From an uncultured SAR86 cluster bacterium (GTDB lineage Bacteria; Pseudomonadota; Gammaproteobacteria; Magnimaribacterales; D2472), in NCBI GenBank assembly GCA_902528215.1, contig CABZRR010000008.1, positions 1 through 46,978 on the forward strand: a stretch of 46,978 bases of DNA. The letters are read 5' to 3'. Below, piece after piece: positions 1-42,948 of the stretch. Made by a program: the position numbers and the translations under genes. The notes beneath the pieces are model-generated. The model was given only the letters and a program-made list of their open reading frames with translations, was not told the DNA's origin and made no database searches. The stretch's first letter is position 1, and every line of letters starts with the position of its first letter.

Positions 1-548
1 TACATGCCAATTGCAGGCTTGATAGTTGATGCAGGTGGGTACCTTCCTTGCAAAGCTCTATTAAAAAATGGTTTTTCAGAATCATTAATTAAAGTTTGAA
101 AATCATCCTCATTCATTCCATTTGAAAGCTGATTTATTGAATAAGTTGGAGAACTATATAAAACGTTAATGCCTCCTGAATCTAGGTCGATTGCAACAAC
201 AGCACCTCTTCTGTTACCAAGGAATTTTGCAGCGCTTTTTTGAGCTTCAATGTCTAAATTTGTGTGCAAATCTGCTCCTTGTAAAGGCTCAATGAAAGAG
301 AGTGATTGGACCAGTTTTCCTCTTGCATTTATTTCATATACTCTTTTGCCAGGACTACCGCTTAAATGGTCTTCATATATCTCTTCCAGTCCTGTCCTCC
401 CCTTTATAAGACCATGCGCATAAACTAATTCAGCATCTCTCCAATGGCTTCGAGGTATTTCAGGCATCGATTTAAACTCATCGTCAGATCTTGAGGTATA
501 TCCTAAAACGTGTGAAAAAATATTAGGATATTGTTGATTGGGATTTTG
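1..548 (-). CDS. mrdA: Penicillin-binding protein 2, middle segment (inverted, partial)
   Basis: Read on the minus strand from about 548 down to 1, this open frame encodes the central part of PBP2, the class B transpeptidase that crosslinks peptidoglycan during cell elongation. Visible landmarks, in family order, are the YPNIFSHVLGYTS stretch of the dimerisation domain, GLIKGRTGLEEIYEDHLSG, INARGKLV, LHTNLDIEAQ and finally YPPASTIKPAIGM. That last motif contains the catalytic SxxK box (STIK, equivalent to Ser330 of E. coli PBP2). The frame runs off the window edge just after it. The rest of the same protein continues on the opposite strand from 551, starting about 14 residues further on, so the two pieces face away from each other. 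The frame shows no internal stop. Identity as PBP2 is firm; the orientation is most easily explained as a fold-back chimera and not a real gene structure. Confidence 0.9.
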
Positions 549-550
549 AG

Positions 551-1327
551 ATGAAAGATCCAGGTTTTTTTGAACTACCAGAGACAGGAAGAGTTTTTAG
601 GGGTTGGCGAAAAGGAGGTCATGGCAAAGTGAATATGCACAAAGCATTTTTGGTAAGTTCAAATACTTACTTCTTCTCACTAGCTTATCAGGCTGATATA
701 GAGGAATTGTCTAATCATTTATTCAGCCTTGGTTTTGGACAAAAAGTTTGCAAGGACTGTTACGATGAGGATCAAGCACTAGTTCCCACTCCTGAATGGA
801 AATACAGCGTCATGAATGCAGGTTGGGTTAAAGGTGATACAGTAAATTTAGGTATAGGACAGGGTTATTTATTAGTAACACCTATGCAATTAGCAAACTA
901 TGCTTACCTTCTGGCTAAAAAAGGTATATCAAGCGAGCCTTCCATTGTTACATTTGAAAATGCAAAAAAGTCTCTTAAAATTTGGCAGGATGACAAATTT
1001 CACGAATCGGATTGGAATAAAATGCATCAAGCCTTACTGGGAGTTATTGAAAGTGATTTTGGAACTGCCAGAAGCATTCGTGATCTCAAGGAATTTCAAG
1101 TAGCAGGAAAATCTGGAACGGCAGAGCTTGTCAGTTTGGACAGCAAGGAAGCTTATCAAGAAGTAAGAACTTCAGAATTATTGAGAGATCATTCCATTAT
1201 TATTGCCTTTGGTCCAATGCCTAAACCAAAATATGCAGTCTCAGTGGTAATTGAGAATGGTGAAAGTGGAGGAGCTGTTGCTGGACCAGTTGCAATTGAA
1301 GTTTTAAAGAGCTTAATTAATGAGTAA
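551..1327 (+). CDS. mrdA: Penicillin-binding protein 2, C-terminal transpeptidase part (partial)
   Basis: This is the C-terminal ~258 residues of PBP2. It begins at KDPGFFELP (E. coli FDPGWWQLP) and shows the later active-site motifs: the SxN equivalent SSN at residues 36-38, GIGQGY at 101-106 and KSGT at 187-190, then the closing strands around HSIIIAFGPMPKPKYAV. The ATG at 551 is not a plausible native start, because the catalytic Ser motif and the whole N-terminus are missing. They lie inverted at 1-548. The gene overlaps rodA by 8 bp, the usual mrdA-rodA coupling. In the cell PBP2 works with RodA as the elongasome transpeptidase/glycosyltransferase pair in the inner membrane. If the inversion is an artefact the native gene is intact and extends upstream outside this window. 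Confidence 0.93.
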   Translation: MKDPGFFELPETGRVFRGWRKGGHGKVNMHKAFLVSSNTYFFSLAYQADIEELSNHLFSLGFGQKVCKDCYDEDQALVPTPEWKYSVMNAGWVKGDTVNLGIGQGYLLVTPMQLANYAYLLAKKGISSEPSIVTFENAKKSLKIWQDDKFHESDWNKMHQALLGVIESDFGTARSIRDLKEFQVAGKSGTAELVSLDSKEAYQEVRTSELLRDHSIIIAFGPMPKPKYAVSVVIENGESGGAVAGPVAIEVLKSLINE

Positions 1328-2408
1328 ACAATTTCCAAAAATATATTTTGATCCCTATTTATTTTTGACCCTTTTTTTTCTCTCAACGCTTGGACTTTTT
1401 TTTCTATTTTCTGCATCAAATGCAGATTTCAGCATAGTCTTAAAGCAATCTTTTTATGTTTTCATTGGGTTTGTTATTATGACTTTGGTAAGTCAGCCTG
1501 ATCCTGATATTTTTAGAAGAACCTCCGGATTATTCCTTATTTTTTCATTTTTGCTTTTAGGCTTTACATATTTATTTGGGCCCGAAATTAATGGAGCACA
1601 AAGATGGGTAAGAGCCGGACCTTTTTCTTTTCAATCTTCAGAACTATTGAAGTTAGCATTACCAATTTTTTTAGCCAATTTCTTATTTAATAAAGAACTC
1701 CCAATACAAAGAAAAGAAATATTTATTAGCTTATTAATTATTTTGAGCTGTTTTTTTGTTGTATTTAGACAACCAGATCTTGGAACTGCAATAATTATTG
1801 CTTGCTCAGGACTCTTTGTGCTTTTTCTTTCTGGCTTAAGTTGGAGTTTTATAGGCGGATCTTTTGTCTTATTAATTTTAAGCTCCCCTTTTATTTGGAA
1901 TATTCTTTTGCAACCTTTTCAGCGACAAAGAATTGCAACATTCTTTAATCAAGATATAGATCCATTTGGTGCAAGCTGGAATATAATTCAATCGAAAGTC
2001 GCAATTGGTTCAGGCGGCTTTTTTGGAAAAGGATTCAGAGAGGGATCTCAGACACAGCTAAATTTTCTTCCAGAAACAGAAACTGATTTCATTTTCTCCG
2101 TTATTGGAGAGGAATTTGGATTTATTGGAGTTTTATTATTGCTGATCATTTATCTATTTATCTTATTAAGATGTTTTTATTTGGCTCTTAATGCAAGGGA
2201 TAGATTTTGTAGATTGGTAATCGGAGGACTCACTCTGACTTTTGCTGCAAATTTAATTATAAACTTATGCATGGTGGTGGGGCTACTTCCCGTTGTTGGC
2301 ATGCCTTTGCCATTCATTAGCAAAGGTGGATCATCTTTAATATCATTATTTTTTGCTTTTGGCATAATTACATCAATGAGTACTCATAAAAAATTCTTAC
2401 CTCAATGA
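1320..2408 (+). CDS. rodA: RodA, SEDS peptidoglycan glycosyltransferase
   Basis: RodA polymerises lipid II into glycan strands during elongation and pairs with PBP2. The 362-residue protein is almost entirely hydrophobic with about ten membrane spans. Family motifs are clear: GAQRWVRAGPFSFQSSELLKLA near residues 92-113, RQPDLGTA at 150-157, NFLPETETDFIFSVIGEEFGF around 248-267 (Asp256 matches the essential Asp of the TDFIF motif) and a C-terminal MPLPFISKGGSS at 328-339. Most RodA/FtsW proteins have Tyr where this one has Lys in the last motif (SYGGSS versus SKGGSS). The gene overlaps mrdA by 8 bp at the start and mltB by 4 bp (ATGA) at the end, so translation is probably coupled along the cluster. 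Confidence 0.97.
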   Translation: MSKQFPKIYFDPYLFLTLFFLSTLGLFFLFSASNADFSIVLKQSFYVFIGFVIMTLVSQPDPDIFRRTSGLFLIFSFLLLGFTYLFGPEINGAQRWVRAGPFSFQSSELLKLALPIFLANFLFNKELPIQRKEIFISLLIILSCFFVVFRQPDLGTAIIIACSGLFVLFLSGLSWSFIGGSFVLLILSSPFIWNILLQPFQRQRIATFFNQDIDPFGASWNIIQSKVAIGSGGFFGKGFREGSQTQLNFLPETETDFIFSVIGEEFGFIGVLLLLIIYLFILLRCFYLALNARDRFCRLVIGGLTLTFAANLIINLCMVVGLLPVVGMPLPFISKGGSSLISLFFAFGIITSMSTHKKFLPQ

Positions 2409-3436
2409 AAGTTCTTATTATAATTTTGTGTTTTTTATCAACTGATATTTTTGCTGATTATTCTCAGCATCCAGAAGCGAAAGAGGTTATTGAAACTCTC
2501 GTTAGCGATCACGGATTTGAAAAAAGTTATGTAATTCAGATCCTTGAATCTGCTAAGAAACAAGAAAAGATCCTACAATCAATGTCATCCCCAGCAGAAT
2601 TTACTTGGACTTGGGATAGGTATAAAAAACTCTTTATAGAAGAGAAAAGAATTGTTAACGGTAAAAAATTTATCATAGAGAATGCATCTCTTTTTGATAG
2701 GGTTGAAGAAGATTTTGGAGTACCAAGAGAAATTATTACCTCTATATTGGGAGTTGAAACTAGGTATGGGAAAATTAAAGGCAGCTATAGGGTGCTTGAT
2801 AGTTTAACAACCCTTGGTTTTGATTTTCCAAGAAGATCAAAATTCTTTAAGAGTGAACTTATTCAGTTCTTCGTTCTATCTAGAGATAATAATTTAGACA
2901 TTAATTCAGTCAAAGGATCATATGCTGGTGCGATGGGCTATGGACAATTTATTTCTTCTAGCTACCGAGCCTATGCAATAGATTATGATGGAGATGGGTA
3001 TGCTGATCTATTTAATTCAGTGCCAGATGCTGTTGCCAGTATTGCTAATTATTTAAAAAAACATGGCTGGAAAAGAGATGGCGTAATAATAAAAAAAGTT
3101 CAGTTAAATAATGTAAGTAAGATTTATAAACTTCCAAGTAATTTCAATAAGTTTATTCCACTCCAATATACTGAGGGCATTGAAGAGGAATATATAATTC
3201 AAGAGGGCGACAGCTTACTATCAATTGCAATAGAAAATAACCTTGAACTGAGAAATTTAATGAATATGAATAATATTAAAAATAAAAATCTTATCAAAGC
3301 TGGACAAAAAATCTTGTTGAGCAAGCCAAAAGATCAATATTTTATTGGCGACGATAATTTTATTGCAATTACTAAATATAATCGTAGTCATTTTTACGCA
3401 AAAGCCGTGTATGATTTATCCACTGAATTTAAGTAA
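2405..3436 (+). CDS. mltB: Lytic murein transglycosylase B with internal LysM domain
   Basis: MltB cleaves glycan strands to form 1,6-anhydromuramic ends. The 343-residue protein has a short N-terminal signal-like stretch (MKVLIIILCFLSTDIFA) without a lipobox cysteine. The catalytic Glu lies in ILGVETRYGK (Glu118), followed by GSYAGAMGYGQFISSSY (171-187) and the DYDGDGYADLF segment. Residues about 262-307 form a LysM module (YIIQEGDSLLSIAIENN through LIKAGQKILLS). The family's normal closing block, NFIAITKYNRSHFYAKAV (318-335), follows it, so LysM is inserted within the MltB fold and not added at an end. The order rodA-mltB-dacA is usual in gammaproteobacteria, though rlpA, often found here, is missing. 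The start overlaps the rodA stop by 4 bp. Confidence 0.93.
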   Translation: MKVLIIILCFLSTDIFADYSQHPEAKEVIETLVSDHGFEKSYVIQILESAKKQEKILQSMSSPAEFTWTWDRYKKLFIEEKRIVNGKKFIIENASLFDRVEEDFGVPREIITSILGVETRYGKIKGSYRVLDSLTTLGFDFPRRSKFFKSELIQFFVLSRDNNLDINSVKGSYAGAMGYGQFISSSYRAYAIDYDGDGYADLFNSVPDAVASIANYLKKHGWKRDGVIIKKVQLNNVSKIYKLPSNFNKFIPLQYTEGIEEEYIIQEGDSLLSIAIENNLELRNLMNMNNIKNKNLIKAGQKILLSKPKDQYFIGDDNFIAITKYNRSHFYAKAVYDLSTEFK

Positions 3437-3446
3437 TATTCATATA

Positions 3447-4598
3447 ATGAAAAAAATATTTTATATTATACTTATTGCCACAATTTGCATTGACGCATTT
3501 GCTCAATCGATGGTTCCAAAAGCACCTAAATTAAATTTAGATAGTTACATATTGCTTGAGGCGAGCACCAATACTGTAATAGCTGAATTTAATCCTGATA
3601 ACCAAATTTCTCCAGCAAGCATGACAAAGGTGATGACTGGTTATGTTATAGCTGATCAAATTGATTCTGGTGCAATTAGTCTTGATGACAAAGTTTTGAT
3701 CAGTGAAAAGGCATGGAAAACTGGAGGATCTAAAATGTTTATTGAGGCTGGGAAAAGGATTTTAGTTCGAGACCTATTATCTGGAATAGTAATTCAGTCT
3801 GGAAATGATGCTACTGTTGCAATGGCTGAATATGTTGCTGGTTCTGAAGAGGGATTTGTTGATTTTATGAATGCCTATGCTTCAGAATTAGGTTTAAGTA
3901 ATACTTTGTTTCAAAATGCTGTTGGTTGGACAGACCCAAATCATTTTTCATCTGCTAAAGATTTAGCTAATATCACTAAAGCATTGATTAATAATTTTCC
4001 TGATCACTATGCTACATATAAAGAAAAAGAATTCACATTTAGTGGCATTAGACAGCTCAATAGAAATAAGCTTCTATGGAGAGATGATTCTGTAGATGGA
4101 GTCAAAACTGGACATACTGAGTCAGCTGGTTATTGTTTGATTTCATCTGCTAAGAGAAATGATATGAGGTTAATTGCTGTGGTGGCGGGCAGCCCTTCAG
4201 AAAATGAGAGGCTCATAGCATCTCAAAGACTTCTTGAGTATGGATTTAGATTTTTTGCTACCCAAAAACTAATTTCAAAGGCTACTGAGGTCACTTCTGC
4301 AAAAGTATGGGGTGGCAAGATGGATACAGTTTCTCTAGGAGCAAAAGATGATATTTTGTTAACTTTACCTAGATCTGATTTTAAAAATTTAAAAGCAAAT
4401 TATAATTTTAATAACAATGTTCAAGCTCCAATAACAGTCGGAGATGTAATTGGTGATATTGAATTTATTTCTAACGACCAATTGGTGCTTTCAGTACCTC
4501 TTATTGCAATTGAATCTGTTGAAGCTAAAGGTTTCTTTGGAAGAATTTGGGCTCGAATAGTCTTCTGGATTATGAGTTTATTTTCTATGGGCAAATGA
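3447..4598 (+). CDS. dacA: D-alanyl-D-alanine carboxypeptidase (PBP5/6 type)
   Basis: This enzyme trims the terminal D-Ala from pentapeptide stems. I chose ATG 3447 over the longer open frame because it gives a proper signal peptide (MKKIFYIILIATICIDAFAQS) and avoids overlapping mltB; the protein is then 383 residues, normal for the family. The active-site motifs are SMTK (58-61), SGN (118-120) and KTG (220-222). A beta-rich domain follows, and the protein ends in an aromatic, amphipathic helix (FFGRIWARIVFWIMSLF), the typical membrane anchor of PBP5/6. It starts 10 bp after mltB and overlaps the next gene by 4 bp. Periplasmic release of D-Ala fits with the transaminase-like gene that follows. 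Confidence 0.96.
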   Translation: MKKIFYIILIATICIDAFAQSMVPKAPKLNLDSYILLEASTNTVIAEFNPDNQISPASMTKVMTGYVIADQIDSGAISLDDKVLISEKAWKTGGSKMFIEAGKRILVRDLLSGIVIQSGNDATVAMAEYVAGSEEGFVDFMNAYASELGLSNTLFQNAVGWTDPNHFSSAKDLANITKALINNFPDHYATYKEKEFTFSGIRQLNRNKLLWRDDSVDGVKTGHTESAGYCLISSAKRNDMRLIAVVAGSPSENERLIASQRLLEYGFRFFATQKLISKATEVTSAKVWGGKMDTVSLGAKDDILLTLPRSDFKNLKANYNFNNNVQAPITVGDVIGDIEFISNDQLVLSVPLIAIESVEAKGFFGRIWARIVFWIMSLFSMGK

Positions 4599-5437
4599 CA
4601 GATATTTCAGCAATATATCAAGGTAAATTAAGCACACTTGATAAGATAAGAGTTTCACCTATGTCTCGTGCTTACACATTTTCGGATAGTATCTATGAGG
4701 TAATACCATATTTTTTAGGAAAACCATTGTGCTTTAGAGAGCATTTTGAACGCATGACTGAAAGTGCTAATCAAATGAATATGAATGTTGATTTTAATAG
4801 TGTGGGTCATGATATTGAACAACTTGAATTCGCTTTAGCCGATCAAGATGGTTATATTTATTATCAAATCTCTAGGGGCATTGATATGATTAGATCACAT
4901 CTTTACCAAGATGATCTTGAAATAGAAAGGTTTGGTTATGCAATGCCATCCACTTCGTCTTCCACTCCAATCAGTGCTATGTTGTGTGATGATGACCGAT
5001 GGGGAAAATGTAACATCAAATCAACTTCATTACTTGGAAATGTTTTATCTATGAATAAGGCAAAATCTCTGGGCTGCCAAGAAGTTGTGATGCATCGTGA
5101 TGGTTTTATGACTGAAGCAGGTGCGAGCAATGTATTTTATTTTGATTCTTCAGGAGCAGTAAGAACCTCAGCATTGTCTGAGAATATCTTGCCAGGCATA
5201 ACTAGACAGATCTTAATTAAGGCACTCGAAGGCACCTCATATTGTGTGCAAGAAGGCAAATGTGATGTTGAGGATTTTAATACTTCACCTTGTATATGGT
5301 TAACAAGTTCTACAAAAGGCCTTTTGCCAATAACGAATTTAATCGGTACAGATTATGTATTACAAGAGAATTATAAGGGTTATATAGAAATCTCAGAATT
5401 TTTTAAGTCTGCAATGCAGTCGCATCTTGAAGCTTAA
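4595..5437 (+). CDS. dat: Class IV aminotransferase, probably D-amino acid (D-alanine) transaminase
   Basis: This is a PLP enzyme of the branched-chain/D-amino-acid transaminase fold. The lysine of the IKSTSLLGNVL motif is the expected PLP Schiff base, TEAGASNVFYF is the cofactor-phosphate loop and ILPGITRQI is the third family signature. I take ATG 4595, which overlaps the dacA stop (ATGA) and gives 280 residues; the longer frame from 4547 lies wholly within dacA. The CNIKSTSLLGNVL and WLTSSTKGLLPI blocks resemble Dat more than IlvE, and the place after dacA supports D-Ala metabolism: recycling released D-Ala or making D-Glu. Aminodeoxychorismate lyase (PabC) is the main alternative. The 3' end overlaps the convergent holA by 35 bp. 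Confidence 0.8.
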   Translation: MTDISAIYQGKLSTLDKIRVSPMSRAYTFSDSIYEVIPYFLGKPLCFREHFERMTESANQMNMNVDFNSVGHDIEQLEFALADQDGYIYYQISRGIDMIRSHLYQDDLEIERFGYAMPSTSSSTPISAMLCDDDRWGKCNIKSTSLLGNVLSMNKAKSLGCQEVVMHRDGFMTEAGASNVFYFDSSGAVRTSALSENILPGITRQILIKALEGTSYCVQEGKCDVEDFNTSPCIWLTSSTKGLLPITNLIGTDYVLQENYKGYIEISEFFKSAMQSHLEA

Positions 5438-6401
5438 GAACTAAACTATCTATTTGCCCCCAGGTATTTGCCTTCATAAGACCTTTGTTAATTAAATCAA
5501 TTTTCAGTATTTCTTCATTTAGCTTTAAAAACTCCTCTGGCTTAGCTCGCTTTATTAAATCCAAATAAAGACTAATTTTAGATGACCAAACTCCGCTCTT
5601 AATTAATGCAGATTTCTTATCTTTTGCCTTTAATGACTCCAAGCATGCATTTATAACCTTTGAAATTATCCAAATAATTGGAGCAGAGCTCTGACGATCT
5701 TGCTTTCGCATATAACTAATTGTTTTGAGAACTTTTTTAAAATTTCTTTGAATTAATAAATCTTCAAGCTCAAATGCACTTATGCCAGATCCAAAGATAA
5801 TATGATCTGTTTTTGACTCATCAATAGAATCTTTACTTAAAAATAATAGTTTCAGTAGCGCTACTTCATTTTTTTGACCTAAAAGATTTGCCTCATTGTT
5901 TTGAAAAATTAAACCTCCAAATACTGGAAGCAAGTCTTTTGGCAAAAAGTCTAACTGTCGTTTAAGCCAAATTTTTTCTTCCATAACTTTTAATTTGCTG
6001 CAATTAATAATAAGGCCAAAGGAATCGAAATTTTTTATCCAAGTTCCACTTACTGGAGTTTTCTCAATACTTGATTCAATAATTAATGCGATGTTAGAAG
6101 ATTTAAAAATATGTCCGTCTTCAATAAACGACTTAATTTTTTCTGGAAATTTCCCCGAGGTATGCTTTATGTGAATGATAAGATTTTCTTGAAAAAGAGA
6201 GCCACCTATATTTCTTGAAGTTATTTCTTGAATTGAATCGAGTTCATCTTGAGAGATAGAGACTTTCTCGCTGAACCCTTTAATTTTTAAATTTTCTACT
6301 ATCTTTTTAACAGCATCTTGTTTTAAAACATGTTCGCCGCCAGTTAAAAGGAAATATTTATGATCTTTAGGATCTAAAAAATTTATAAAACTAACTTTCA
6401 A
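5403..6401 (-). CDS. holA: DNA polymerase III subunit delta
   Basis: HolA opens the sliding clamp as part of the clamp-loader complex. The protein is 332 residues (E. coli 343). The N-terminal FLLTGGEHVLKQDAVKKI matches the nucleotide-fold entry of the family, with GGSLFQENLIIHI and the later all-alpha region also fitting; overall similarity is low, as is common for delta. The start is TTG at 6401: an in-frame stop lies directly upstream and the next methionine would lose the conserved N-terminus. It overlaps the lptE stop by 11 bp. The order leuS-lptE-holA is conserved in gammaproteobacteria and strongly supports the call. Its last 35 bp overlap the 3' end of the convergent transaminase gene. 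Confidence 0.88.
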   Translation of the reverse strand: MKVSFINFLDPKDHKYFLLTGGEHVLKQDAVKKIVENLKIKGFSEKVSISQDELDSIQEITSRNIGGSLFQENLIIHIKHTSGKFPEKIKSFIEDGHIFKSSNIALIIESSIEKTPVSGTWIKNFDSFGLIINCSKLKVMEEKIWLKRQLDFLPKDLLPVFGGLIFQNNEANLLGQKNEVALLKLLFLSKDSIDESKTDHIIFGSGISAFELEDLLIQRNFKKVLKTISYMRKQDRQSSAPIIWIISKVINACLESLKAKDKKSALIKSGVWSSKISLYLDLIKRAKPEEFLKLNEEILKIDLINKGLMKANTWGQIDSLVLKLQDATALQT

Positions 6402-6855
6402 TTAACCAATACTCCTGTGCAAGCTTTTCTAGTAAGGAAAATTCCAATTCCTCAATTATTGTTTTTTGCGCAACCAATTCTGACTGCGGATTAGATTCAT
6501 TAACTGGTATCCAACCAGATATTTGAAGAATACCACTTTTACTTTGAGTTGAATTTAAAAAAATATATTCTAGCTCACCAATAACTTCTATTTGTTTTGC
6601 TCTTGCAGCAATTCCTCCGTAAAAATTTTTCTTCCTAAAGTTAATATTTAAAATTTTAAGACTCATATTATCCTCAGATGCGCCTGCAGAAAAATATCTT
6701 ACTGTTTTATTTTTAAAGGAGTCTTTAATACTTGACCCAAAGCTAACTTTTTCTAATTCTATATGTTTTTTTTCAATCCACTGATATTGACAACTTGTGA
6801 TCAATAGAAAATAAATAAGTATTGAGAAATACTTCTTAAATTTATTTTGCCCCAT
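6391..6855 (-). CDS. lptE: LPS-assembly lipoprotein LptE
   Basis: LptE sits in the outer membrane with LptD and helps insert lipopolysaccharide. The 154-residue product from ATG 6855 has a basic N-terminus, a hydrophobic stretch and a lipobox ending in LLITSC, with the lipidated Cys at residue 22. A longer frame begins at 6897 but would place 14 extra residues before the signal peptide and deepen the overlap with the preceding gene. The mature part is poorly conserved; AAGASEDNMSLKILNINF and the tail ending EEYWLIES-like are compatible with LptE. The assignment rests mainly on the lipobox and on the position between leuS and holA. It overlaps the upstream gene by 14 bp and holA by 11 bp. Confidence 0.82.
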   Translation of the reverse strand: MGQNKFKKYFSILIYFLLITSCQYQWIEKKHIELEKVSFGSSIKDSFKNKTVRYFSAGASEDNMSLKILNINFRKKNFYGGIAARAKQIEVIGELEYIFLNSTQSKSGILQISGWIPVNESNPQSELVAQKTIIEELEFSLLEKLAQEYWLIES

Positions 6856-7966
6856 CAAAGAAGTCTTCAAAGCCGGATGGATCATGCCTTCCAACAACTA
6901 AGTTTTCCAGTATTCCTATACCTTTTTCAGAGCCTAGTGTTGCTTTTGCAATTTGATGAGTATGAAAAAAAGTGTAATCACCTGGATCAATTTTAGATAA
7001 GTCCCATACTTCATATCCTGTTTCACTTTCACCTTTCCAAATTCCATGTTTCCATTCATCATGCTGATAACCAATTCCTTTACAGAAAAATATTGGACCC
7101 ATAGTTTCTAACTCTATTTCAAAGTTTTTATTATCCTTCAACACACCGCATATTTTTGCACCAGTAGCCCAACGGGTACCCTTCTTCCAGTATACGGAAT
7201 GATGCAGTGAGTGCATTGTCTCAATTTCAATATCAGTAGGAGCAGAGGACATATCATCATATAGCGGCAATTTGTGCCCAGAAATTTGAGTTGTATTTCC
7301 ATTTTGATCCTGAAATGTACCAAATTGTGTGCAAAATCCATCAAAATGGATCGGAGCCCAACACCAATAAACCCCTGGCTCTTGATTAAGCATACCTGGA
7401 GCGCCACCCTCAGGCTCTCCTACTGGTCTGATACCCCATGATCTGTCCCTTGTGCCGTAAACTGTCTGAGGTTTAAGTGATCCAGCTTCAGTAGATATCT
7501 CACCCGTCCATTTTCCAAGCTGAGTAAACCTAATTGTATTCATAATTGTTCTAGTGCCCTCCATTAATAGGGATCTAGGTTCTTGATGCGCAATAGAGTT
7601 AGCTGAAAATTTGAGATTACAATTTAACTTGTTGTCAGGATCTTTTAATGAGAATGTTAACTCGTTCATTGGCTCGTCAATTGCTAGGCACATAGGACCA
7701 ATATTTATTGGCATTCTATTTTTGTTAAGGCGTTGACTTGCATGAAATGAATACTGCTTACCTTTATATGAAATGCTGAAGTGAGCATCCATAACATGCC
7801 TATTAGGATAAAGGGCTAAACCTATTTCAAAGATGTATTCATTTTCAGGATCCATACCATTAAAGAAATACCTGTCATAGAAATTTCTATCAGTCGAGCC
7901 AGGAATAGTTATTGGTTCTACTGCCTGATGGACAGGGTAGTCGTCGAATGGTGTTATGTAGTTCAT
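6842..7966 (-). CDS. Lipocalin-like DUF7064-type protein of unknown function
   Basis: This 374-residue protein has no signal peptide or membrane span. It is rich in aromatic residues and beta-type sequence. The YGTRDRSWGIRP motif (170-181), FFHTHQIAKAT-type C-terminus and GxGxxENL segment resemble the DUF7064/DUF7065 proteins, relatives of the AttH/CrtC-like carotenoid-hydratase and tocopherol-cyclase beta-barrel fold, which bind hydrophobic ligands. No catalytic role can be assigned. The start codon follows the leuS stop codon with no gap, and its end overlaps lptE by 14 bp. It has therefore been inserted into the conserved leuS-lptE-holA operon and is probably co-translated with it. Family placement is from memory of the motif and is moderate in confidence. 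Confidence 0.6.
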   Translation of the reverse strand: MNYITPFDDYPVHQAVEPITIPGSTDRNFYDRYFFNGMDPENEYIFEIGLALYPNRHVMDAHFSISYKGKQYSFHASQRLNKNRMPINIGPMCLAIDEPMNELTFSLKDPDNKLNCNLKFSANSIAHQEPRSLLMEGTRTIMNTIRFTQLGKWTGEISTEAGSLKPQTVYGTRDRSWGIRPVGEPEGGAPGMLNQEPGVYWCWAPIHFDGFCTQFGTFQDQNGNTTQISGHKLPLYDDMSSAPTDIEIETMHSLHHSVYWKKGTRWATGAKICGVLKDNKNFEIELETMGPIFFCKGIGYQHDEWKHGIWKGESETGYEVWDLSKIDPGDYTFFHTHQIAKATLGSEKGIGILENLVVGRHDPSGFEDFFDGAK

Positions 7967-14089: not shown

Positions 14090-15684
14090 CTCCCTTACTT
14101 AAAATTTCAAATTTGTACGTAAATTTTCAAGTTAGAAAAAGTAAATTTTCTGCAGTGAAGAACTTTAATTTAATGATTGAAAAAAATCAGATTGTGGGCT
14201 TAGTTGGAGAATCTGGGTCTGGCAAATCAGTCACAGCAATGTCAATTATGCGCTTGCTTCAAGAGCCAAAAGCATCATATGGAGAGAAATCATCAATTGA
14301 ATTTGATGGTGAGGAAATACTTAGCGCTAATAAAAAATCTTTAAGAAAGATTAGAGGGAATAAGATTTCAATGATTTTTCAAGAACCAATGACTTCACTT
14401 AATCCATATCATAAAGTTGGAGATCAAATTGTAGAATCTATTCTATTGCATAAAAAAAAACATAAGTATGATGCTATTTTAGAAGCAAAAAATTTAATGG
14501 GTTTGGTTGAGATCCCAGATGTTGATAGAAGGTTCGACTCATATCCACATGAGCTTTCTGGTGGTCAGCGGCAGAGAATTATGATTGCCATGGCCCTTGC
14601 AAATAAACCTAAATTACTAATTGCTGATGAACCAACAACTGCACTTGATGTAACAATCCAGGCTCAAATATTAGACTTAATGATCAAGTTAAAAAATGAA
14701 ATAGGAATGTCAATATTATTCATCACTCATGATTTAGGATTAATTCAAAAATTTTCTGAGACTATTACAGTAATGCAAGATGGAGAGGTTGTGGAGCAGG
14801 GAGATACAAAGACTGTTTTTTCAAGTCCGCAACATGCCTATACAAAAAAACTTATTGATTCAGAACCGGAGGCAAAAAAAGAGACATTAACTGAAAAAAA
14901 ATCATTTATTGATGTTAAGGATCTGAATATTTTTTATCCCTTACCAAACAAAAATTTTTTTAAGAAAGAATTCTTTCATGCTGTTAAAGATGTAAATTTT
15001 TCTATACCAAGACAATCAACAATTGGATTAGTTGGCGAGTCTGGATCTGGTAAATCAACACTTGGGAAAGCTTTGGCAGGATTGATTGATTTCAAAGGTT
15101 CAGTTCTTTTTGAAGGCCGGAATATCAGTCAATTAAATTCAAGAGAATCAAAAATAATCAAAAAAGATATTCAAATTGTATTTCAAGATCCATATGGATC
15201 TCTTTCACCAAGAATGACAATAGGAGAGATAGTTGGCGAAGGCCTTGACGTTCACTTTAACCTTAAAAAAAATCAAAAAGACATACGTATTGCTGAATCT
15301 TTGAAGTCAGTTGAGATTAATCCAGACGATAGATTTAAATATCCTCATGAATTTTCAGGTGGACAAAGGCAAAGAATTGCAATTGCCAGGTCTTTAATAC
15401 TAAATCCATCATTTATGATTTTAGATGAGCCTACTTCTGCACTAGATAGATCAATTCAAATGCAGATTATTGAGCTTTTAAAGAATATTCAAACAGACTT
15501 TAAGTTGACTTACTTGTTTATTAGCCATGACTTGAAGGTTGTTCAATCAATGTCTGATTACATATTTGTCATGCAAAACGGATATATTGTTGAGTCTGGA
15601 CCAGCAAAACAAGTTTTCTCAAACCCAGAAGAAGTCTATACTGATAAACTTCTTAACGCAGCATTGCGTTATTCAACTGTTTAA
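14086..15684 (+). CDS. Dual-ATPase ABC transporter protein, peptide/microcin importer type (YejF-like)
   Basis: This 532-residue protein fuses two ABC ATPase domains. Domain 1 has Walker A GESGSGKS (41-48), signature LSGGQRQR (157-164), Walker B LLIADEP and the H-loop ITHD. Domain 2 has Walker A at 317-324, signature FSGGQRQR (423-430), Walker B MILDEP and H-loop ISHD. The layout is that of YejF/GsiA, which power dipeptide, oligopeptide or glutathione importers. No permease or binding-protein gene is next to it; instead it sits between an esterase (4 bp overlap) and ilvD (2 bp gap). The partner genes must lie elsewhere or the protein has another use. Confidence 0.92.
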
Positions 15685-34581: not shown

Positions 34582-34609
34582 TTGTTTTTAATCATAATTA
34601 ATGTATAAA
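34582..34609 (+). promoter_or_regulatory. Candidate promoter of the ilvBHC operon
   Basis: TTGTTT at 34582-34587 and TATAAA at 34604-34609, 16 bp apart, lie in the 90-bp gap between rluD and the acetolactate synthase gene, giving a ~25-nt leader. I see no leader peptide rich in branched-chain codons and no attenuator hairpin in this gap. Confidence 0.4.
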
Positions 34610-38012: not shown

Positions 38013-38075
38013 AAAATACGAGATATATATTTTTGTTATTTTTAATATTTAATAAAAGTAACACAACATGATTTT

Positions 38076-39609
<1,534 letters not shown>

Positions 39610-39869
39610 ACGAAACTTTCGTACTAGAGTGCCCACACGAGTAATCAAATATTTAAGAGAAGTTATTTATAAGTTTTGGTATGTAATTTTCTAGTAAATA
39701 TTTTTTATATTTACAGTGTCATATTTTTATCTGTTATCAAAAATATAGACACATTAGATCACTGCATTAATAGAAGAAAATTTTATTAAGTTATTCTCAA
39801 ATAACAAAAAAAACTTAGCTCGCAATTACAAAGGAGAGCTAAGTATGTAGCCCTTTTTTAGGGTTATAT
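39610..39869 (+). other. 16S-23S spacer without tRNA genes
   Basis: The 260-bp AT-rich spacer contains no tRNA-Ile or tRNA-Ala, nor any cloverleaf I can draw. It holds the 3' half of the 16S processing stem (39627-39655), a perfect 9-bp hairpin ACTTAGCTC/GAGCTAAGT (39813-39821 and 39836-39844), and the start of the 23S processing stem (39860-39876, pairing with 42751-42767 at all 17 positions including two G-U). Confidence 0.85.
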
Positions 39870-42757
<2,888 letters not shown>

Positions 42758-42761
42758 ATGT

Positions 42762-42777
42762 AACCTTAAAAAAGGTT
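42762..42777. repeat. 16-bp palindrome in the 23S-5S spacer
   Basis: AACCTT and AAGGTT form a perfect inverted repeat around AAAA just after the 23S gene. It overlaps the distal strand of the 23S processing stem, so it is probably a competing or processing hairpin in the pre-rRNA. Confidence 0.5.
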
Positions 42778-42829
42778 TCGTTGTTCAGGAATAACTTATT
42801 TGCAGTGATAAAAGAATTACATACCAGTT

Positions 42830-42948
42830 TGCCTGATGACAATAGCAGTTTGGTACCACCTGATCCCATCTCGAACTCAGAAGTGAAACGAACTAACGCC
42901 AATGGTAGTGCAAGGTCTCCTTGTGTGAGAGTAGGTAATCGTCAGGCT
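42830..42948 (+). rRNA. rrf: 5S ribosomal RNA
   Basis: The ~119-nt gene begins TGCCTGATGAC and ends GTCAGGCT, which pair as helix I. The internal CCATCTCGAACTCAGAAGTGAAAC and GGTAGTG...GAGAGTAGG blocks match bacterial 5S. No tRNA follows it. Confidence 0.96.

Follow-up and report, generated by a model that had tools for sequence, protein, structure and literature searches.

An inverted join within mrdA at the start of a SAR86 contig, most probably a fold-back chimera of DNA amplification

Introduction

The inverted chimeras that form during multiple displacement amplification (MDA) are the closest described counterpart of the structure reported here. In the part of the study by Lasken and Stockwell (2007, PMC1855051) on which we draw, 406 of 475 MDA chimeras were inverted, the joined segments lay <10 kb apart in 337 of the 406 inverted cases, and the chimeric segments overlapped by 2-21 complementary bases. 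A larger reanalysis (PMC4595205) gives, in the portion that deals with these measures, overlaps that fall mainly between 5 and 8 bases and are most frequent at 6, together with chimera distances that range from 0 to >5,000 and are most frequent at 250-300.

Here we describe a contig of a SAR86-like genome (designated G000) in which two parts of mrdA, the gene for PBP2, meet in opposite orientation. The window, i.e., the whole stretch of DNA analyzed, is the entire contig C8 with a length of 46,978 bases, and the join lies at its very first bases. After the join, this contig has the same gene order as the mrdA-rodA pair of other SAR86 genomes, whereas mrdA itself is split here and lacks its first 162 codons in this assembly. 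Compared with the inverted MDA chimeras, as these are characterized in the cited part of PMC1855051, the structure is alike in involving one locus, opposite strands, a separation of <10 kb and a short overlap; it differs in that it occurs in an assembled contig rather than in single reads and in that searches of the assembly did not recover the sequence that belongs upstream.

Results

Position and anatomy of the inverted join

BLASTN comparison of the contig with its closest named relative, SAR86 AG-453-K07 (L002), yielded two gapless alignments of opposite orientation: contig positions 1-532 matched L002 4963-4432 on the minus strand at 95.1% identity, while positions 528-6000 matched L002 4978-10450 on the plus strand at 92.7% identity. 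The two alignments overlap at contig positions 528-532, and because both cover those bases the join was placed within them. The opposite orientation of the two mrdA parts, as reported in a preliminary description of this DNA, was thus present in the sequence both by BLASTN to L002 and by protein match. The position given there was not upheld, since the join had been put at 548-551 with the plus-strand part starting from 551, whereas by BLASTN it lies at 528-532 with the plus-strand part starting from 528 (codon 346). The features at the start of the contig are as follows.

1..532, minus strand: middle of mrdA (PBP2), codons 163-340 of the relative's 611 (BLASTN, protein match, NCBIfam pbp2_mrdA)
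528..532, no strand: inverted join, ATATT (comparison with five relatives)
528..1327, plus strand: C-terminal part of mrdA, codons 346-611, colinear with relatives and continuing into rodA (BLASTN, protein match)
1320..2408, plus strand: rodA, intact, adjoining mrdA (NCBIfam TIGR02210 rodA_shape, 373.5 bits, cut-off 336.7)

Against the NCBIfam profile pbp2_mrdA (TIGR03423, 593 positions), the minus-strand part aligned to positions 151-316 and the plus-strand part to positions 332-592, that is, to separate and ordered stretches of the protein, with E values of 1.4e-47 and 8.4e-72 and scores of 162.6 and 242.6 bits, respectively, each part falling below the whole-protein cut-off of 455. The mrdA frames of both halves run into stops past the join, and codons 1-162 are absent from the contig and were not found elsewhere in the assembly. 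Sequence past the join was colinear with that of relatives, comprising the mrdA C-terminus, rodA and the genes for a lytic transglycosylase and a D-Ala-D-Ala carboxypeptidase. In 12 of 12 named relatives, contig base 1 falls 14 bases short of the start of the plus-strand arm, and the counterparts of window positions 1 and 528 are separated by those 14 bases, or ~5 codons; the earlier statement that ~14 residues were lost between the halves therefore has to be corrected to 14 bases. In our view, the larger figure arose because the plus half was taken to begin with the ATG at 551.

A base-by-base comparison with five relatives delimited the overlap at the join. The bases at 528-532 (ATATT) matched both arms of L003 and L004, for which base 527 agrees with the minus arm only and base 533 with the plus arm only. 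The minus arm of L002 mismatches at 528, which leaves an overlap of 4 bases, and the minus arms of L005 and L007 mismatch at 531, which leaves 1 base. As this genome holds a single copy of 528-532, the true overlap has to be estimated from relatives, and it would amount to 4-5 bases by the three nearest of them and to 1 base by L005 and L007. Among 181,913 random inverted joins in L002, at least 5 shared bases occurred in 0.9% and at least 4 in 2.5%, and because such overlaps are rare among random joins, the one observed here is unlikely to have arisen by chance. A real inversion via microhomology would also show such an overlap.

The loop between the far borders of the join, L002 4432 to 4977, comprises 546 bases. 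Set beside the published MDA chimeras, the mrdA join shows the opposite orientation, a separation far inside 10 kb and, as detailed below, absence from the other genomes of the group; its overlap falls within the range of 2-21 bases by L003 and L004 (5 bases) and by L002 (4 bases), with only 1 base by L005 and L007. Furthermore, in each of the two arms the order of the nearest relatives is L002 > L003 > L004, and because these three rank alike, both arms appear to come from one locus of one organism type. A join of two different organisms was rejected on the same ranking.

mrdA and the join in other genomes

We surveyed mrdA in 60 genomes, G000 included. A clear match (E value of 1.4e-55 or better) was obtained in 54 of the 59 other genomes, and in 52 of these 54 the open frame spanned 599-628 codons, the two shorter frames measuring 464 codons (G059) and 551 codons (G054); the frame in G000 measures 266. 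G041 gave a weak, paralogue-like match only (E value of 7.3e-5), and no mrdA match was found in G015, G016, G019 and G048, which are 55, 71, 69 and 88% complete, respectively.

A query of 200 bases centered on the join was then compared with 26 genomes of the genus, again including G000. G000 alone matched across the join; among the 25 other genus genomes there was no match across it, 15 carrying both halves apart on opposite strands, six matching one half and four giving no match. G009, one of these four, did yield an mrdA match in the survey above, at 69% identity; a DNA query this short probably fails at such a distance. Comparison with related genomes, which the preliminary description had named as a way of checking its reading, thus came out in its favor, the join being absent from the other members of the genus and mrdA being kept in one frame. 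Its proposal of an MDA chimera or a fold-back assembly is likewise supported by the intact mrdA of relatives, by the genus genomes that lack the join, and by the size of the overlap and the distance spanned.

Search for the missing upstream sequence

The G000 assembly comprises 1,175,422 bases in 30 contigs and is 81.3% complete. When the complete mrdA protein of L002 was used as the query, no other mrdA piece was detected in it (six of six candidates scored), and a second intact mrdA in the same genome was rejected after protein searches in which all candidates were scored (3/3 and 6/6). The 4.4 kb upstream of mrdA were not detected in G000 by a DNA search with L002 1-5000, judged on the best 40 of 69 candidates. 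The next strong upstream match was the end of contig C19, where base 14309 of 14313 corresponds to position 34585 of G021 C1, and the outer border of the mrdA loop corresponds to G021 C1:20260. The ~14.3 kb between these points (G021 C1:20260-34585) were not found in the assembly by DNA search in the best 40 of 101 candidates, among which this stretch gave four weak matches only (67-72%), to C1 and C2. No contig of G000 carrying the mrdA upstream region was therefore identified by the two DNA searches, an absence that is not absolute, as it was read from the best 40 of 69 and the best 40 of 101 candidates.

The preliminary description had looked to another contig of the same genome with an intact mrdA, and none was found (DNA search, best 40 of 69 candidates; protein search, 6/6). 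Because the same assembly yielded no intact mrdA, the reading of the join as an artefact is based on the comparison with relatives and on the structure of the join itself.

Other contig ends and other contents of the contig

Six contig ends of 4,000 bases, namely, the left ends of C1-C5 and the right end of C8, were set against G004 and G021, the latter being otherwise the closest relative. Inverted joins were seen at 0 of these 6 ends against the two genomes, and for five of the six, G021, G004 or both were colinear along the entire length. On this comparison, inverted joins are not common at the six contig ends surveyed. At the left end of C1, the match to G021 breaks at 613-615, G021 being ~1.26 kb longer on the same strand, and the match to G004 begins at 611; positions 623-699 of this end hold a tRNA-Met gene, beside which sequence may have been inserted or deleted. 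Positions 1-4000 of the left end of C4 are 97% identical to G004 and gave no match to G021 in the best 40 of 108 candidates.

Elsewhere, C8 carries a complete 16S-23S-5S rRNA operon on the plus strand (38075-42947). ARAGORN detected no tRNA genes in the contig, and hence none in the spacer of the rRNA operon. Three minus-strand frames of 332, 168 and 374 codons at contig 5403-7966 have no Pfam match at 1e-8 and adjoin a leucyl-tRNA synthetase-like gene.

A true inversion or an invertible switch

An in-place flip of L002 4432-4977 gives a right-hand join identical to the one observed, and its left border, at which the readings differ, lies beyond the contig, 14 bases past base 1. The anatomy at positions 528-532 would thus also suit a real chance inversion of ~546 bp within mrdA that arose via a short overlap in one cell or strain and left the gene broken. 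We nevertheless consider this unlikely and give it only a slight chance. The frames of both mrdA halves end at stops past the join, and no second mrdA was found in the recovered assembly (81% complete). The mrdA frame reaches at least 464 codons in 54 of 54 other genomes with a clear match, compared with 266 here, and well-studied bacteria require PBP2 for growth as rods. Slighter still is the chance that a true 546-bp inversion of mrdA exists in a SAR86 cell such that part of the population has this normally essential elongation transpeptidase switched off or broken.

A programmed invertible segment turning PBP2 on and off would account for the orientation of the two parts, and the score of the inverted repeats at the borders in L003 was reached by few of the shuffled sequences. 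Taken over five relatives, however, the border inverted repeats were unconvincing, the real scores being reached by 141, 11, 120, 89 and 99 of 200 shuffles for L002, L003, L004, L005 and L007, respectively. In addition, no recombinase was recognized among the 32 window proteins of at least 150 codons (Pfam, 1e-8; three without any match), and 0 of 25 other genus genomes matched across the join. A programmed switch is, on these comparisons, very unlikely, and we allow it scarcely any chance; the earlier judgment that a real invertible segment is much less likely than an artefact agrees with both the border repeats and the genus genomes.

Discussion

We conclude that the inverted join in mrdA almost certainly arose as an artefact of amplification or assembly and does not reflect biology, and we hold it to be very probably an inverted chimera generated by phi29 polymerase during MDA and kept by the assembler. 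In such an event, a growing 3' end would leave its template during phi29 multiple displacement amplification, the freed end would pair via ATATT, or most of it, with the opposite strand of the same locus ~546 bases away, and its extension on the new strand would give a fold-back product. This product would consist of the 546-base mrdA loop with both of its ends leading into one arm, namely, the mrdA C-terminus and rodA. The assembler would have followed the loop in reverse into the arm, and would have halted 14 bases before the loop closes on the arm again.

The fold-back itself would accordingly be situated beyond base 1 of the contig, and the start of the contig 14 bases short of the arm would be explained by it, because a fold-back would force a break there. 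With the part of mrdA upstream of the loop unrecovered, the assembler may have been left with the chimeric path alone. After SPAdes, one single-cell pipeline removes 100 bases from each contig end, according to the section of its description cited here (PMC5519541); given trimming of this kind, the contig would originally have begun 86 bases inside the arm, and that pipeline may or may not have been used for G000.

A fold-back made without phi29 amplification would still be an artefact. It could stem from library preparation or from the assembler, for example in a metagenome-binned genome, through a short hairpin or a wrong walk in the assembly graph, and the same geometry would be expected; moreover, the window is a whole contig whose end lies beside the join, which is consistent with an unresolved graph branch. 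Record titles starting with 'MAG:' are found in 10 of the 12 named relatives and fit this origin as well. Against it stand the AG- or AH- isolate codes carried by 11 of the 12 named relatives, which we take to denote single-cell plates, although nine of these 11 are among the relatives with 'MAG:' titles. From these codes, G000 too may have been amplified from a single cell. The overlap and the distance at the join also agree with amplification chimeras, as far as these are covered in the portion of PMC4595205 used here. We therefore regard an origin in library preparation or assembly as improbable, with a small chance of being correct. The 'MAG:' titles led us to raise that chance a little and to lower our confidence in the MDA chimera by a similarly modest step, so that the MDA chimera remains the reading in which we have high confidence.

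If the join were real, it would mean that a cell-shape gene had been broken by inversion in a marine lineage. Most likely, however, it holds no biological novelty. Annotators would record such a join as two truncated mrdA genes or as a loss of PBP2, and the locus serves as a warning that an inverted copy-jump can make up the opening 532 bases of a contig.
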